This document shows positions 9,282 to 41,702 of a stretch of 64,000 bases of DNA, piece after piece; the first letter of the stretch is position 1, and the number at the start of each line of letters is the position of its first letter. Origin of the DNA: Apostichopus japonicus (Eukaryota > Echinodermata > Holothuroidea > Aspidochirotida > Stichopodidae); contig NC_092575.1 of assembly GCF_037975245.1 (NCBI RefSeq), positions 2,733,001 through 2,797,000 of the forward strand. Direction: 5' to 3'. Under the pieces are notes generated by a model. The model searched no databases, had not been told where the DNA came from, and saw nothing but the letters and a program-made list of their open reading frames with translations. The translations under genes were made by a program, and so were the position numbers.

Positions 9282-10247
9282 GCCATAGCAACCATCTCCG
9301 AGGGTTAAGAGTGTTTTGGCGGCCAAGGTTATATTGAAGACACCGGCCTTCTAGGACAGCTGAGAGACTAACAGGTACATGGTCACAATGATAAAAGCTA
9401 TGTTTAGTATAGTCAGTTGTCAGGGAATACCTTGTCTGGTATCTCGCAGTAAAATACTATTCAAAAGACGAAATTGCTACGATAATACAGTAGTACAGGG
9501 GTTTTGCACACACACGGAAACCGCCTTATTTTTACAGCTTTGTGTACAAAATTTGTGATCTTGGCATTGCCCTAGAAATGTGCATGCTCATTTCTTTATG
9601 TGACAGTACCAAATTAGCTAAAATATATTCTACAGTAAATACACCAAATATTTTGCTCACAGATCCAGATGCAAGTCCGGGTGGTTGGTATAAAATCTTA
9701 AGTGTCCCAGAAACTTACACAGGTGCTTTATCTTTCACTAAAGTTTGAAGGTTAATGGAATGGAATACATATTAGTGGTTTAAGCTTTGGGAACAGAAAT
9801 TTGCAATTGTCTACACTACCTTCAAAATCCGAAAAAAAAGCTCAAGTATCCGATTATTTTCTGAAAAAATGGTGGAATTTATTTCTGCAGGTCCTGAGCA
9901 TCTGGGAAGGCACTACTAACATTCTTTCTCTGGGTGTTCTTCGCTCCGTCGCCAAGAATAACGACCGAACTCTTCGGGTTTTCTTCAACTCTTTGGAGTC
10001 GAGGCTTGAAGCGGCTTCTCAGTCGAACTTTGTGGAATTGAAGAAAGCCTCTAAGAGACTGCAGGTATCCAGCAACAACCTAAAGAAACTTTTAAAGGAT
10101 GCCTTGAATGAGGGTCCGACGTTCATGGAGTTAGCAGGGAGAGATTTAGCATACAGTTTGTCAATACTCTATATTGGATCCCTTCTGGTGGAACATGCAT
10201 CCTGGACGGAAGCAACTCAGGGAGATGCTTTTGTGGCTCAAAGGTAG
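9282..10247 (+). pseudogene. partial inverted copy of the acyl-CoA dehydrogenase 3' end (last two exons)
   Basis: Two exons with intact splice signals are recognisable: 9282-9374 and 9891-10247. They correspond to exons 10 and 11 of the minus-strand gene at 18026-37995. The first carries two in-frame stops: the codon for Leu in SEGLECF is TAA, and the Ala codon of LRDAQ is TAA. The second exon is fully open and exactly as long as its parent (357 nt with stop), with about 11 residue changes in 118, and keeps IWEGTTNIL. Intron sequence before exon 11 and the first roughly 70 bp of 3' UTR also match, so this is a genomic segment duplication and not a retrocopy. Exons 1-9 were not found upstream. 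A functional product is unlikely; a short transcript from the open last exon cannot be excluded. Confidence 0.85.
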
Positions 10248-10687
10248 ACTTGAAACTTTGTAGACTGTTTTACTTTATTTATGTGACATAAATTGTATGA
10301 GATATTTATAGGTAACTGATATTCTGTTTGAATTTTACATTCTACTTCACCATAGAAATTCCCAAGATGCTTTCATGAGATTGCACAATTCATGGATTCA
10401 GTGTCTTACATCATCATTCTGTTCGGATGATATGTGTCGAACTTGAACATTCGGTTCTCGTTTAGTATTAGCGCTATATCAGATCCTTCATGGATAGCTG
10501 TGAGTTTCTACAGTGGATCACTACAGGTAGAACTTAAATTACTGTCGTAATTTGAACCAAGTCTTGTTACATCGGATTCCTTATGGTAGAAGGTATATCC
10601 TTGGAAATGCAACTGACGAGATATGCTCTATAACTGAAAGGCAAAACTAAACTTTCCTTTTTCTTTTTCAAATATTTTATATTTTAG

Positions 10688-11345: not shown

Positions 11346-11489
11346 GCACTGTCCCACCCCACAGACATTGATATCTGCTTTTTGTTTGTTGGTAGTCACG
11401 AATGCCTTCCTTTATGATCCTGCCTTCATAATGTCAAGAAATCTGAAAATATTTCCACAGCGGACATCGGAATATATCTAATTCATTTT

Positions 11490-11679
11490 ACTTTTTAAGA
11501 AAAAGTCACCCAGGAAAGAACCTGGGCACGAAAACCAAACTACCAAACGACTGATCCGCTCTCAGCCCCAGTCCCCTTGCATCGGGGCTGTGACTGTGTG
11601 ATCATCGTCAGGTGTGTATCACCATTCCCTAAGGGAACAGATACTACACATGATCTTAGCCAAAAGGCCGAGAAGCGAC
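11490..11679 (-). mobile_element. U2 snRNA-headed SINE or chimeric retroposon
   Basis: On the minus strand the element starts with about 44 nt matching the 5' end of U2 snRNA (CGCTTCTCGGCCTTTTGGCT, then the branch-site pairing region GTAGTA), at 11635-11679, with one clear mismatch. Just after CTGTTC the sequence departs from U2 and runs about 145 nt into unrelated DNA with hairpin potential (AGCCCC/GGGGCT; CCCAGG...CCTGGG) ending in a T-rich/A-rich tail. The Sm site and the 3' half of U2 are absent, so it is not a working U2 gene. AAAATGAATTAG flanks both sides (5' side 11680-11691, 3' side about 11478-11489 on the plus strand), as expected for LINE-mediated insertion. SINEs with snRNA-derived heads are known in some animals; whether this tail belongs to a family is untested. 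Confidence 0.7.
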
Positions 11680-11813
11680 CTAATTCATTTTGCTATCTAA
11701 TTCATTTTGATCTATCTAATTCATTTTGCTATCTAATTCATCATCTATCTAATTCATTCATCTATCTAATTCATTTGCTATCTAATTCATCAAAGCTATC
11801 TAATTCATTTTGC
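11680..11813. repeat. tandem array of TAATTCAT-centred 16-19 bp units (8 copies)
   Basis: TAATTCAT occurs eight times, starting at 11681, 11698, 11717, 11734, 11750, 11767, 11783 and 11801. The intervals are 16-19 bp, and most units read ATCTAATTCATTTTGCT or close to it. The unit is the same sequence that flanks the U2-headed insertion on its other side. Confidence 0.85.
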
Positions 11814-11819
11814 TGATCA

Positions 11820-17810: not shown

Positions 17811-18025
17811 GAAAATGGAAATTGTCTCTGATTTAAGGACTTGACTTTTTACAACACTGCTCTACCAGAGGGTATCCAATATAATGTAACAAACTTAAAA
17901 CAGTCATTTCAAATGAGTTTTACCACTGAGACAAACATAGCATCTCACTTAGTTACAGCTACCTACAATTTCTCATTCAATTTATGTAACATAAATCAAA
18001 TAAAACAGTCTATAAAGTTTCAATT

Positions 18026-21000
18026 CTACCTTTGAGCTACAAAAGCATCTCCCTGAGTTGCTTCCGTCCAGGATGCATGTTCCACCAGAAGGGATCCAAT
18101 ATAGAGTCTTGACAAACTGTATGCTAAATCTCTCCCTGCTAACTCCATGAACGTCGGACCCTCATTCAAGGCATCCTTTAAAAGTTCCTTTAGGTTGTTG
18201 CTGGATCCCTGCAGTCTCTTAGAGGCTTCCTTCAATTCCACAAAGTTCGACTGAGAAGCTGCTTCGAGTTTCGACTCCAAAGAGTTGAAGAAAACCTGAA
18301 GAGTTTGGCCGTTAGTCTTGACGACGGAGCGAAGAACATCCAGAGAAAGAATGTTAGTAGTGCCTTCCCAGATGCTCAGGACCTGCAGAAATAAATTCCA
18401 CCATTTTGGAAGAAAGTAATCCAGGCATTTTGTGAACTTTTTCCTGGTTTTGAAGGTATTGTAGAATAATTGCAAAGTTCTGCTAGCTAAGTTAGAGCCA
18501 CAAAGATGTATTCCGATTCCAGTAATCTTCTGACTCTATTAAAACATAAAAGCTCCCAAGCCTAAGTTTCCGGTTTGACATGCTTCAACTGGGGCATGCG
18601 GAAAACTTCTACTTAAGATTTTAAACCATTGTTAGTAGTGCCTCCCTGGATGCCCAGGACATATGCAGAGATAAATATCAATCATTTCAAAGGAAATATA
18701 TCAAGAAACAGCATTTGGCCTTTTAATGACTAATATCAACTTTTGATTCAAGCCAATATTATTTCTTCCTTTCTTTGAATTACCCCCTTTCAAACTTGAT
18801 TTTATAATCTCCTAGTCACTTTCCCATGGTGACCTGCTTTACGTATTAGCATGCACAATTGGTATGTTCAAATTTTTCGGCCTTCACAAGAGGTTACTAC
18901 ATGATTTGAACTACAGTACATATGCTCAAAGCAAAATATTTTTATTTTTATGGGGGGGGGGGGGGCGGGGGAGGAAAGTGTTGGTGGACTTTTTCAAGAA
19001 AACAATAGAGTACACCCTTCACCATTGGGAATGTTTGTTCGCCTTTCTAAAAAATTGACCGAAACTATATTTTTCAACCAATGTCTTGTAAGAGCTAATA
19101 ATCATTATCATGCACACTAAAGGGTGACAGGAAAGGGCGGTGGGGGGGTTTCCATGGGGTGGGATTCATACCTGTGCATCTCGGAGCATTCCTGGAAGAC
19201 CGGTGTCTTCAATATAGCCTTGACCACCAAAGCACTCCAAACCCTCAGAGATTGTCGCTATGGCCTGAAATGGAAACCAACAGAGAAAAAAAAAGAATGA
19301 GCTTCTTCATCTCTTCAAACTTAAAATATAAAATATATATATATATATCAAATATAGTCTATAGAAAAGACAGTATCTTTGGAGAAAAAAGATATGTTTT
19401 CCCTCTTGGGCAAGACATTTCACAGACAAGAGGAGTAAACAATAAGAGTTTTGTATAAAGCCAGGACCCAATAAGGCAAAGAGCAGGATTAGAACCAGGT
19501 GACCTCCGGATATACCAAGTCCAGTGCATTAAATACCAATGACTCATCCAACCCTCAGATGAGCAGAGTGCAAGAATCAGCATCCTGAGGTCACCGGGTC
19601 AAATCGAATCATTTACAGCAGCAACCAAAAACCGTCTTTTGACCTCTTCAGATTTGTTTAAATAAGTTGTCCTTTCTAGGAGTTATCGACGACTTTTTAC
19701 CACGGTCTAGCGTTTCACAAAATGGAACGATTATTATAACTTTTTTCACCTGATGCTTTACTCTATGGTATTTTAATGGCATTGAAGACTCGCCCCAAAT
19801 CGTGTGCGGCCATCTGAAAAAGTTAACTTTCTGTTGCTTGCAAGTGACGTTTTGTTTGTGTTGCTACAAAATGTAGACAGTAATGAAACGCGATACCTTG
19901 TTATCTTTAGCTGGATCTGAGATGTCCATCGCTGCTATGTACACTGTGTTGTGGGTATTGACCGCAGCTGTACATGTACACTAGTGTCTAATTATTGACG
20001 GTAGCAAGCTGTGTGTGTATTTTCTGGGATCGATGGTGGTGTCTAACACTTCTGTTACACCTCAATTGAAACTAGGTCAGATTACCGGCATAAGACGTTT
20101 CTTTTTGCGCGAGACTTCACACCCTCTTATACCCTTTAAGCAGTTGTCATATGATTGCCGGTTAGACACCATACTGAAATCACACAGTAACACATTTACC
20201 CTATTGTATATATATTCGCTATTCTGTAACATTAAAGGCTATCTGAGTGATGCAGTGTCTGATAATCCTTTACTGACCATTTTTTTGGCTGTCTTTAGTT
20301 CAACCTGATATCCTTGCCACATACGTTTTAGATTTTTACAAGCCAAGTACACCCACACACATGCCATCACCATCACTAAATCCTTCTGCCATTGGCAAAA
20401 TGAATCAAATAGTGAAGGGATTATTGATGCTGACCACAATTTTTGTCTGCTCTTGGTAACTTTATGTCTACAAATAAATGTCCATTTGTTTGTCAGTCCT
20501 CTTCCAAACCGAATCAACACTAACACATTAAACCGTTCTAAATAACTGAAGTTAAAGCCCATGCAACTGGCTTTATTGTGGCTGCACATCAGTATTCTTC
20601 TAGGCAGTGGCGCTGAGAGCCAGGTCGGACCCCAGCGGACAATTATGCCGCCAGACAGCGCTATTCTGCAGTCTTCAGTTCTCCTTAAGTATGTTATAAA
20701 AACCAGACTACATTCTTCGTTATCCAAATATTTCACCCGGGGCCCCTCTTATTGCCCCAAGTTGGTAGCACGCCTGACCCCCCCAACATCACCACCTCCC
20801 CCAACCTTACCACCCTACTCTCCCCAGGTCTGATGATAATGTTAACATTAACAGATGTTTCTTCTGTGTATCAGTTATTCTGGGTGAAAATGGTGAGACC
20901 CAGAAAAACTGATACACACCCACATATGACTTGTGGTCTTGTCAGATGTCCCTTAATCATTTGACCTTCCTTGAAGTGACACATCACGTAACCAGAAATC

Positions 21001-39119: not shown

Positions 39120-41702
39120 CTAAATAGTTTTCGGACACTTTAAACTTCTCCCAGGGCGCAGGTCCGCAGGATGCTGGAGCCCGCTCATGTTCCTAATTTT
39201 GCCATGGTGCCATAAGAAAAGTTCAGGTAGACAGTCGAATGGAATTAACCACCTAGCTGTACATTCTAACCACATGTACTTCCCATTCATGCTCTTCAAC
39301 ATGCAAACCACAAAAAAAAGTAAATCATGATTGACGTTCTCGTTCTCCTCCTCCTTATCCTCGTACGTCCTCGTCCACGTCCTCTTCCTCCTCGTCCTCT
39401 TCCTCTTCCCCTGATGACGTCATAATCGAGAAATATTGGGTGACGTTATGCTAACTTTATTCAACTTGACTGATATAAGCTCACCTGTTAGGTCAAGGGT
39501 CAATCGATGGAAGACGAGGCGAGGTCTATGAACCACAATTAACTTCCATTCCGGCAGGTGTAAAATCCTGCCTGTGCTTCTGAGTGGTGATTTGTGATGG
39601 ATAGAGGGCAGCAAACATAGTTTGAAACACGCGAGCAAGATCACAAACAGATATTAGAAAGGCGTGTTCAGGTTTTAAAATAAATAAAAAATAATAATTT
39701 TATAATGTATTTATTTCTGCAGAATAGAGAACAGAGGAATCAGATGTTGTCTTCTCAAAGATGCTGACCAAGTTCACCTGTCACAAACGGAGTGTGCGGG
39801 GGATAAAGAATCACTTCCGGTCCTAAAGTAATTGACTCCCACCATAGGCGTAGGAGCCTAATTTGATTTGGGGGGGGGGGGGGCTGTAACGACTTGCCCG
39901 AAAAATATAACCAAAATTTTTCGCGCGCTCAACATCTTAATGTGCATATCATATAGGCATTCATCGGTTATTACATCACATGAAAATAACCGATAAATGC
40001 CTATATGATAAAAAATTGGTTATATTTTCCGTGTTATTACCCTTCCATATTGGTTATAATTATTGGGGAAGTCGTTACAATAATAACAATAATATAATAT
40101 CAGTTTAACCATTGAAAAACACATTGCAAATTATTCTTCTTTCAGCATAATATAGGTGCCCGAAAAATTCTCAGCATATTGCCCGAATTTTCACCAAAAA
40201 TTTTGGTTGGGGGGCTGCAGCCCCCAGCTCTATATCATCGGTTATTACATCACATGCAAATAACCGATATATGCCTATATGGTAAAAAAATAGTTATATT
40301 TTCGGTGTTATTACCCTTCCATATTGGTTATAATTATTGGGGAAGTCGTTACAATAATAACAATAATATAATATCAGTTTAACCATTGAAAAACACATTA
40401 CAAATTTTTCTTCTTTCAGTATAATATAGGTGCCCGAAAAATTATCAGCATATTGCCCGAATTTTCACCAAAAATTTTGGTTGGGGGCTGCAGCCCCCCC
40501 CCCCCCAGCCCCCCGCCTCCTACGCATATGCCTCGAGGCATACCTCAACAATCAAGGATAAAAGAGATGGCAACTCACTGGTAACATCAACTTGAAGGTT
40601 CAGTAAACTGGCCGGTGGTCGATAAGGAACAAGTTCTTTTCCGGTCTTATATGTTGATCGCTATACAACGAAATAAAACGTACATGATTAATGAATGCTT
40701 TATGTAAGGAAGTTCGATATAGCAGTACTTTGAAATATTTACTTCTTGTTCGACTCTAATTCTCGATATGAGAAATCGAAATTCGAGTGGTCTGGCTGAC
40801 AGTTTTGACTATTTTACTAACAGATGCCATTGCATTCTCGGAGTTACGATTTTATTACGAAATTTAGCAGTGGCGTAGGAAGGTAATTTTGAGTGGGGGG
40901 GGGAGGCTGAAGACCGATGGCCGGCCTGGGGGAGGGGTCTAAGGGGAAGGGGTGCCCCCTCCCTTTTGGATTTTTTTTCATTTCCAGGTGGCCTCAGATG
41001 CAATTTGGTGCAATATAGCAAACCTCAACTCACACTTTCCATTTTGTATATAATTTTGCATTTTCACCTGGCCTTAGATGCAATTTGGTGCTCCAAATGA
41101 GATTTTTTTTCTCATTTGGAAATGAAAAATTGGTTTTCTGACTTGCGAAGCGGGGGGGGGGGGGAGGCGGAATGATACTTCCGCCCCTCCATAATTTTCA
41201 CTGGGGGGCTGGCGCCCCCCAGCCCCCCCCCCCGTTCCTACGCCCTTGAAATTTAGATTTGTTCCTCAAAACTTTCGTCTGTTGTTTTCGACGCTGATTT
41301 TTGACCTGTTGTATCTCGAAATTTCGATTTTGATTGATGGAATTATTGATTGGTATTTTTTCTTCTTTATTTGCTAGTGTTTATTGTTATTTTTTTGGAA
41401 GGTCACTGTTCGTGGTACATGTATGAACATATTCTGACAAACTTACTCAGTTTACAGCTTTGATAATTCACTCTCAGTCGTCATATTATATTGTGTAAAA
41501 GGAAGTAGGTCGGACATTACGATCCTAGCAGGATCTTCTCCGGAGGCTGAAAGACAAGTTGTATTATGTTGTGATACATGGCACTTGTCAACGTGATGTT
41601 GTGTCCTAGTTATGAACAACCATCAACCAAGCGTGATTTCGTGGAACACGTACTCACCAAAGACTTATACTCACTTGCTACCGTGGCGCTCACCACTGCC
41701 AT
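39120..41702 (-). CDS. tentative four-exon gene, about 119 aa, unidentified
   Basis: Candidate exons in coding order: 41702-41658 (MAVVSATVASEYKSL, donor GTGAGTAC), 40660-40579 (RSTYKTGKELVPYRPPAS..., donor GTGAGT), 39571-39485 (RILHLPEWKLIVVHRPRL..., donor GTGAGC), 39265-39120 (ends ...KCPKTI, stop). Phases are compatible and the sum is 360 nt. I recognise no family, the last two exons have weak acceptors, and other donors would also keep frame (for example after 40544). The first exon lies about 0.9 kb from the BOLA2 start on the opposite strand, which would fit a shared bidirectional promoter. A hAT MITE sits in its first intron. Inference only. Confidence 0.25.
39845..40535. mobile_element. 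GCGTAGGAG-ended element with an internal 274-bp tandem duplication
   Basis: The ends are CATAGGCGTAGGAG (left) and, inverted, CATATGCGTAGGAG (right), next to G and C runs. Inside, a unit beginning CATCGGTTATTACATCACAT at 39962 repeats at 40236 (period 274 bp). The copies share CCATATTGGTTATAATTATT and GTTTAACCATTGAAAAACAC and differ at few positions, so the duplication is recent. A fragment of the family is at 4018-4160. No convincing TSD was found. Confidence 0.7.
40869..41248 (-). mobile_element. hAT-like MITE with perfect TSD AAATTTAG (380 bp)
   Basis: Inverted copy of the family at 10688-11064: left CAGTGGCGTAGGAAGG, right inverted CAAGGGCGTAGGAACGG, with the same GATGCAATTTGGTGC and TTCCGCCCC interior. 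The exact TSD AAATTTAG is at 40861-40868 and 41249-41256. The two copies have different TSDs, so they are independent insertions. Confidence 0.9.
41508..41590. repeat. single arm of the 13.4-kb fold-back repeat
   Basis: The arm reads GACATTACGATCCTAGCAGG with TCTTCTCC following, then GGCTGAAAGACAAGT, matching one arm and the centre of 13395-13490. The second arm is missing; a CACTTGTC segment at 41581-41588 is the only trace of inversion. Confidence 0.6.

Follow-up and report, generated by a model that had tools for sequence, protein, structure and literature searches.

A U2-headed element in the window

The window, a 64,000-nucleotide (nt) stretch of the Apostichopus japonicus genome, contains on its minus strand a 190-nt element in which the 5' end of U2 snRNA is joined to an unrelated 145-nt body, referred to here as the tail. 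The features of the locus are as follows.

11490..11679, minus strand: SINE copy (U2 head and tail), 190 nt, one base off a 187-nt core common to 26 places in the genome
11635..11679, minus strand: head, U2 snRNA nt 1-45 with first base G for A (cmscan, RF00004, 50.3 bits); nt 2-45 as in the U2 genes of the same genome
11490..11634, minus strand: tail (body), 145 nt, ending CTTAAAAAGT; no Rfam family at cut-off; core matched at 1706 places
11610..11651, minus strand: predicted hairpin spanning the head-tail junction
11509..11526, minus strand: predicted 3' stem-loop, CCCAGG-TTCTTT-CCTGGG
11680..11691, minus strand: flanking copy of AAAATGAATTAG, forming a direct repeat pair with 11478..11489
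11478..11489, minus strand: target site duplication (direct repeat), AAAATGAATTAG, on the 3' side of the element
11680..11814, no strand assigned: tandem array with a ~17-bp unit that contains the target word (repeat analysis), the element lying at its edge

The limits given for the element in the preliminary description (11490-11679) are exact to the base, and its recognition of a U2 5' head on the minus strand holds: positions 11679-11635 correspond to U2 nt 1-45, and the Rfam U2 model scores above its cut-off of 46 bits, with the alignment limited to the first ~45 nt. Nucleotides 2-45 of the head are identical to those of the U2 genes in the same genome, and only base 1 differs. The tail (11634-11490) is below the cut-off of every Rfam family, and an origin from a tRNA or another known RNA is ruled out, as ARAGORN finds no tRNA gene in the window and the tail has no Rfam score at cut-off and no A or B box signal. 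A 24-nt piece of the tail has no exact match in viral contigs, a collection from which records near the genome of the window may be left out, and no second copy of the element was found inside the 64-kb window.

The flanking repeat, originally proposed as a LINE-type target site duplication (TSD), is present on both sides, and other copies of the family bear TSDs (see below), but at this locus alone the duplication is weak evidence because the same word is the unit of the adjoining ~17-bp tandem array (11680-11814). Elsewhere in the window are a 596-bp inverted duplication that is 89% identical (9727-10318 on the plus strand and 17956-18550 on the minus strand), both arms of which have open frames matching the C-terminal domain of acyl-CoA dehydrogenase 11, and a 274-bp unit present as two tandem copies with 95% matching (39961-40498).

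A dispersed family with a fixed U2 junction

The genome searched spans 671.6 Mb in 35 contigs, and the element gives at least 50 matches in it at 79-100% identity (with 40 of 2730 candidates scored). Across the whole genome, the 34-nt junction is found at 204 places with up to three mismatches, 58 of them exact, compared with 0 for the reversed control, and a 37-nt core of the tail is found at 1706 places with up to three mismatches (control, 0). At 19 of 20 sampled tail-core places, which are the top of the tail-core list excluding copies examined earlier, U2 head sequence covering at least nt 26-45 is present. The twentieth (L168; C2:4041975-4042395) is headless, with an inverted piece of its own 3' end preceding the tail, and resembles a twin-priming product. 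The first copies were gathered by likeness to the window copy, and that set is biased toward young copies.

The abrupt switch after CTGTTC that had been noted at the window locus is real, and it is also old. Sixteen of the 20 sampled places carry CCCTTTCGAGG there, and the young form, CCCTTAGGG, accounts for the 58 exact places; the junction of the window copy is a young form (CCTTAGGG). The junction subfamilies are led by CCTTTCGAGG (16 of the 20 sampled places), followed by TTTTCGAGGGG, TTTTCGGG, TTTTAGGG, CCTTCGGG, and CCTTAGGG. There is also a minor set of 58 places in which CTGTTC is followed by TT, mostly as TTTTC or TTTTA, and these forms agree with U2 for up to about five further bases. 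They suggested a head composed of U2 nt 1-50, which was dropped, and nt 45 is kept as the end of the head because the commonest old junction is CTGTTC followed by CCTTTCGAGG; we regard the TT forms as a minor variant, arising via mutation or conversion by U2.

The 3' end is constant throughout the family (CTTAAAAAGT), and the TSDs vary between copies. A direct repeat of at least 5 nt flanks 34 of 43 full copies, and in a set of 92 copies, a few of which are segmental duplicates of each other, 56 have a direct repeat of at least 7 nt, 11 more lie at a target consisting of ATCTGTTC (U2 nt 38-45), and 25 are without either. The family has the properties of a SINE, with many short noncoding copies sharing the same ends within different TSDs, and a head derived from a small structural RNA (U2 nt 1-45). 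The genome-wide check proposed at the outset, a search for many copies with one junction and different TSDs, gave the result that the family reading requires, and it is nearly certain that the window element is a member of a U2-headed SINE family, which was one of the two explanations offered in the preliminary description.

Several copies are arranged in multiples or carried with other sequences. Head-to-tail clusters in which the duplicated target is reused are present at three loci (L020, L038, and L039), and two dispersed double copies (L087, C6:8389600-8390200; L094, C16:11765600-11766200) are organized as U2 head, tail, ATCTGTTC, and tail, with a 13-bp duplication flanking the entire double unit in L094; they derive either from the copying of a two-tailed RNA or from insertion of another SINE into the first one's head. 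Inverted SINE pairs 2-3.4 kb apart are present at C2:13099706/13102855, C3:25407315/25410300, C16:10514683/10517702, C16:23429865/23433219, and C19:27865157/27867356. Four copies (L134, L135, L142, and L145) have the same flanks, and therefore one SINE insertion probably travels within a larger mobile element, as part of its inverted repeats; L134, L135, and L142, as the same insertion as L145, were left out of the counts of head and tail changes in which pattern columns are excluded (see below).

Target preference

The SINE has a U2-like target preference. Each of the 72 nonredundant 3' flanks has A as its first base, and over the seven bases that follow, the mean number of positions matching U2 nt 39-45 is 2.89, compared with 1.77 expected from random window positions starting with A and 1.81 from local flanks; the largest values in 5000 draws are 2.28 (window) and 2.36 (local). 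Copies short of the last base, flanks of fewer than 30 nt, ATCTGTTC targets, and identical flanks are left out of this comparison.

In 7 of 56 copies, the 3' junction includes an A or AT that the target lacks and that is identical to U2 nt 38-39. There is no extra base in 46 of the 56, and AA, ATCGT, and AGT occur once each, as alignment or flank-end cases that are not counted as U2-like. The A and AT extras are consistent with an RNA that continues into U2 past the tail, and just as consistent with AAAAAGTA(T) being the SINE's own terminus. Among the eight places, described below, at which the SINE is joined to U2, none is a dispersed copy extended by a long stretch of U2; all are U2 copies or a SINE head.

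Copies within U2 genes

At least 46 U2 genes were scored, with 42 on contig C16, where they form a tandem array with a 645-bp unit, and four on C15. A full U2 gene with the same 3' sequence as the tail had been named in advance as grounds for rejecting the retroposon interpretation; intact U2 genes instead continue as normal U2 past nt 45, although some U2 genes do carry the tail, at nt 37/38. Genome-wide, the 3' end of the SINE is joined to U2 nt 38 onward at eight places, of which six are in the C16 array, one is on C20 in a diverged copy of U2, and the last is nested in another SINE. The copies in the array and on C20 are as follows.

C16, core 31132320-31132506 (3' end near 31132304): resident, with U2 1-45, full tail, and U2 38-end
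C16, 3' end at 31059305 (near 31059287): resident, full layout, with a single head substitution
C16, 3' end near 31133747: resident, full layout, junction CCCCTCGGG
C16, near 31134545: fourth site, truncated tail between U2 1-53 and U2 38 onward, with a 16-bp repeat
C16, fifth site: truncated tail behind a LINE
C16, sixth site: tandem pair, the first tail truncated
C20 (L083): whole U2-headed SINE in a U2-like copy, leaving two heads

In the three full C16 residents, which share the order U2 1-45, full tail, and U2 38-end, only ATCTGTTC is repeated. Upstream of the resident near 31132304, the unit has 100% identity to intact units across 690 bp, and downstream 99.9%. The extra sequence is 153 bp, exactly the tail plus ATCTGTTC; the head of this resident is therefore the U2 gene's own 5' end together with an 8-bp repeat of the U2 site. 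Re-entry would not always be seamless, because the C20 copy bears two heads.

The 187-nt core of this resident (C16:31132320-31132506) is unchanged at 26 places, 25 of them dispersed, and differs from the window copy by one base. Among the first 43 copies, which were selected for likeness to the window copy, 26 are identical, including the resident, and 13 are off by one base. A T at position 30 of the head was considered as a marker of the C16 array and ruled out, as it is also present in the three C15 U2 loci examined.

LINEs at the U2 insertion site

U2 units are interrupted by at least three LINE families, at the U2 point that the SINE also uses. A fourth relative (L128) also ends at that point, and there are probably four families in the array at C16 30.87-31.17 Mb (L051-L082 and L128); some of the LINEs there have long open frames and nearly identical copies. 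In two array LINEs, the ORF1 proteins (410 and 510 aa) contain a CCHC knuckle, and the ORF2 proteins (1157 and 1162 aa) contain an apurinic (AP) endonuclease and a reverse transcriptase (RT). A zf-RVT zinc-binding domain scores over the cut-off in L079 and slightly under it in L078, and the closest solved relative of the L079 ORF2 protein is L1 ORF2p (E 5.6e-82). One of the array families leaves a 13-nt repeat, ATCTGTTCTTTTC.

Keno and Utopia are U2-targeting LINEs after which U2 resumes at nt 38/39 (PMC4640811). The array LINEs, with an AP endonuclease and RT at the U2 site, fit Keno (AP endonuclease) over Utopia (restriction-like endonuclease) as that paper portrays them, a tie made by description. 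Keno and Utopia share the U2 site of the element reported here, but they are autonomous LINEs whereas this is a SINE.

Every candidate for the 3' regions of the array LINEs was scored, and all (7 of 7 places for family C, 12 of 12 for B, and 7 of 7 for A) fall within C16 30.87-31.17 Mb; these LINEs are accordingly strict in target. As they are strict and nearly all SINE copies are elsewhere, scattering of the SINE may need another LINE, and this difference is the chief objection to the simplest view of a helper. A LINE family that is 47% related to the array LINEs (L121, L122, L123, L124, and L126) ends directly before local tandem repeats in these five copies, as would a LINE that has such repeats as its target.

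Comparison of the tail with LINE 3' ends, suggested when the element was first described, has yielded no match among the LINEs examined. No 3' tail is shared with the SINE in 12 LINE copies compared over ~1 kb beyond ORF2, and a LINE partner recognized by a common 3' tail is unsupported in these copies; the best non-U2 match of the SINE past a LINE ORF2, at L123, covers 28 nt (E 0.021) and is located after the end of that LINE. A BLAST comparison of the SINE with array LINEs A and C returns just U2 and short chance words, with LINE B compared at its junctions, and array LINEs B, C, and L128 have in common with the SINE only a short AAAGT/AT end. By the same comparisons (BLAST against A and C; junctions of B), the SINE does not have ends derived from a same-site LINE in the manner of R2-like SIDEs.

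A proposed source of copies in the U2 array

U2 promoters sit upstream of the gene. Within the SINE, the best A box has two mismatches and the best B box three, no better than in shuffled sequence; an internal Pol III box does not define snRNA-headed SINEs, because U2-type promoters are external. With no internal Pol III signal and unrelated flanks, the dispersed copies are without an evident promoter.

The interpretation we favor, with moderate confidence in the mechanism as a whole, including its promoter and LINE return, is that the window element is one of the dispersed members of a U2-headed SINE family, some copies of which reside in U2 genes. In those genes, the 145-nt body occupies the U2 insertion site already known from LINEs (nt 37/38), and an RNA made from the U2 promoter would begin with U2 nt 1-45 and then run into the body. 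LINE proteins would reverse-transcribe this fusion RNA from its fixed 3' end, and proteins that know the U2 site, or those of a laxer relative, would return it to U2 genes and U2-like sites. New copies that re-enter U2 genes would regain a promoter-bearing copy, and others would scatter to loosely U2-like sites, the window being an example, where no promoter is evident. That the array residents have only one head may be due to joining of the cDNA's U2 end to the gene by homology; at L045, where the layout is like that of the residents, the head of an older SINE seems to have been replaced by a newer SINE. Copying would run from resident to dispersed copies, but a resident could be a recent arrival rather than a source.

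A less probable account, and in our judgment an unlikely one, is that this is a conventional SINEU whose head was captured long ago via template switching to U2 RNA, that transcription is from a dispersed locus or by read-through, and that the copies in U2 genes are landing sites. The nt-45 junction is present in old copies (16 of 20 places), and the head is thus old; insertions occur in U2-like targets, including the heads of other SINEs (11 of 92 copies are at ATCTGTTC); and the C20 copy is a whole headed SINE inserted in a U2-like copy, all of which this account accommodates. Template switching onto snRNAs is known for several LINE clades (PMC4476161). However, the same account leaves the dispersed copies with no evident promoter, and the breakpoint of the head coincides with the end of the 8-bp U2-site duplication of the residents, which template switching does not predict.

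RNA structure and sequence conservation

It is also conceivable that the element is a functional U2-like small RNA gene that spread, with the fused RNA having its own job and a conserved hairpin serving it. None of 200 shuffles folds as well as the 190-nt RNA (z -3.27), and in the predicted junction hairpin the branch-site stretch of U2 is base-paired to the tail. Joining the head to the first 27 nt of the tail gives an energy gain that only 15 of 2000 shuffled tails and 10 of 3000 segments of the window reach; with the whole tail, 26 of 500 shuffles reach it. Across 22 copies of all ages, 435 of 438 hairpin cells are paired, compared with 90-235 of 389-438 for slid partners. These values favor a functional RNA, but the hairpin was noticed ahead of its test, the structure was drawn from the alignment on which it was tested, and the changes are one-sided against the commonest pair.

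The pattern of substitution and the behavior of the copies also stand against a functional gene. In 17 older copies, a count from which the headless L168 and two duplicates (L163 and L166, of L162 and L165) are left out, private changes number 24 of 548 in the head and 62 of 1579 in the tail, and because these are equally frequent the dispersed copies look neutral. The copies moreover act as retroposons, with TSDs, truncations, and nesting, and we regard a functional RNA gene as very improbable. Shared variants in the 17 older copies are present in 0 of 34 head columns and in 8 columns' worth of 95 tail columns; these fit in direction a head held nearer to U2 than the tail, with counts too small for a claim. 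Change rates over the 22 copies are 6 of 720 in the head and 120 of 2557 in the tail, values that are biased by the search pattern; with pattern columns excluded, private changes are 6 of 472 and 42 of 1982, and shared changes occupy 0 head and 61 tail cells. The other explanation raised for the window locus, a one-off template-switch chimera, agrees with the lack of a second copy within the window but is ruled out by the 204 junction and 1706 tail-core places in the genome.

For the favored reading, of a SINE with members resident in U2 genes, a fuller version can be put forward tentatively, at a little short of even confidence. The U2 array may be both the only promoter and the breeding ground of the SINE, with every transcription round beginning at U2 nt 1. 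Each re-entry may restore a promoter-driven copy without a doubled head, folding of the tail over the branch-site stretch of U2 may keep the RNA from competing with U2, and the head may have arisen through hijacking of the promoter instead of through template switching.

Relationship to other elements

The crocodilian SINEU elements, reportedly described by Kojima in 2015, are said to be snRNA-headed SINEs with a head from the 5' end of U1 or U2; they are also said to be tied to a Tx1-clade LINE with a target preference, to prefer a Mariner transposon, and to have gained U1 and U2 heads recurrently. With its snRNA-derived head, the present family is of the SINEU kind, and the reported link to a Tx1-clade LINE would be a second point of likeness; it differs in that one U2 junction is kept, the target is U2-like, and copies are present in the U2 array.

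In way of life, the nearest parallel is with the R2 SIDEs of Drosophila 28S genes (PMC3414825), as both would be short, nonautonomous elements that use the fixed site of a LINE in an RNA-gene array and rely on a host transcript. As described there, R2 SIDEs have a self-cleaving ribozyme and LINE-derived ends and are confined to ribosomal DNA, whereas this SINE keeps the 5' end of a host RNA as its head, has no LINE-derived end so far, and is scattered genome-wide. The mammalian snRNA/LINE chimeric retropseudogenes, in which the 5' part of an snRNA is joined to another RNA between TSDs (PMC4476161), are separate template-switch events, whereas this family is propagating with one junction. The titles, abstract openings, and passages of the literature that were consulted contain no report of a U2-headed SINE resident in U2 genes, with the order U2 1-45, tail, and U2 38 onward.

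As snRNA promoters lie outside the transcribed region, it is not obvious how a SINE gains an snRNA head. If the proposed mechanism is correct, both the gaining and the keeping of such a head would be explained by residence in an snRNA gene, with the promoter writing the head, and the nonautonomous parasites of RNA-gene arrays, of which R2 SIDEs are an example, would be widened from ribosomal to spliceosomal RNA genes. This case offers candidate source copies that can be named and counted.
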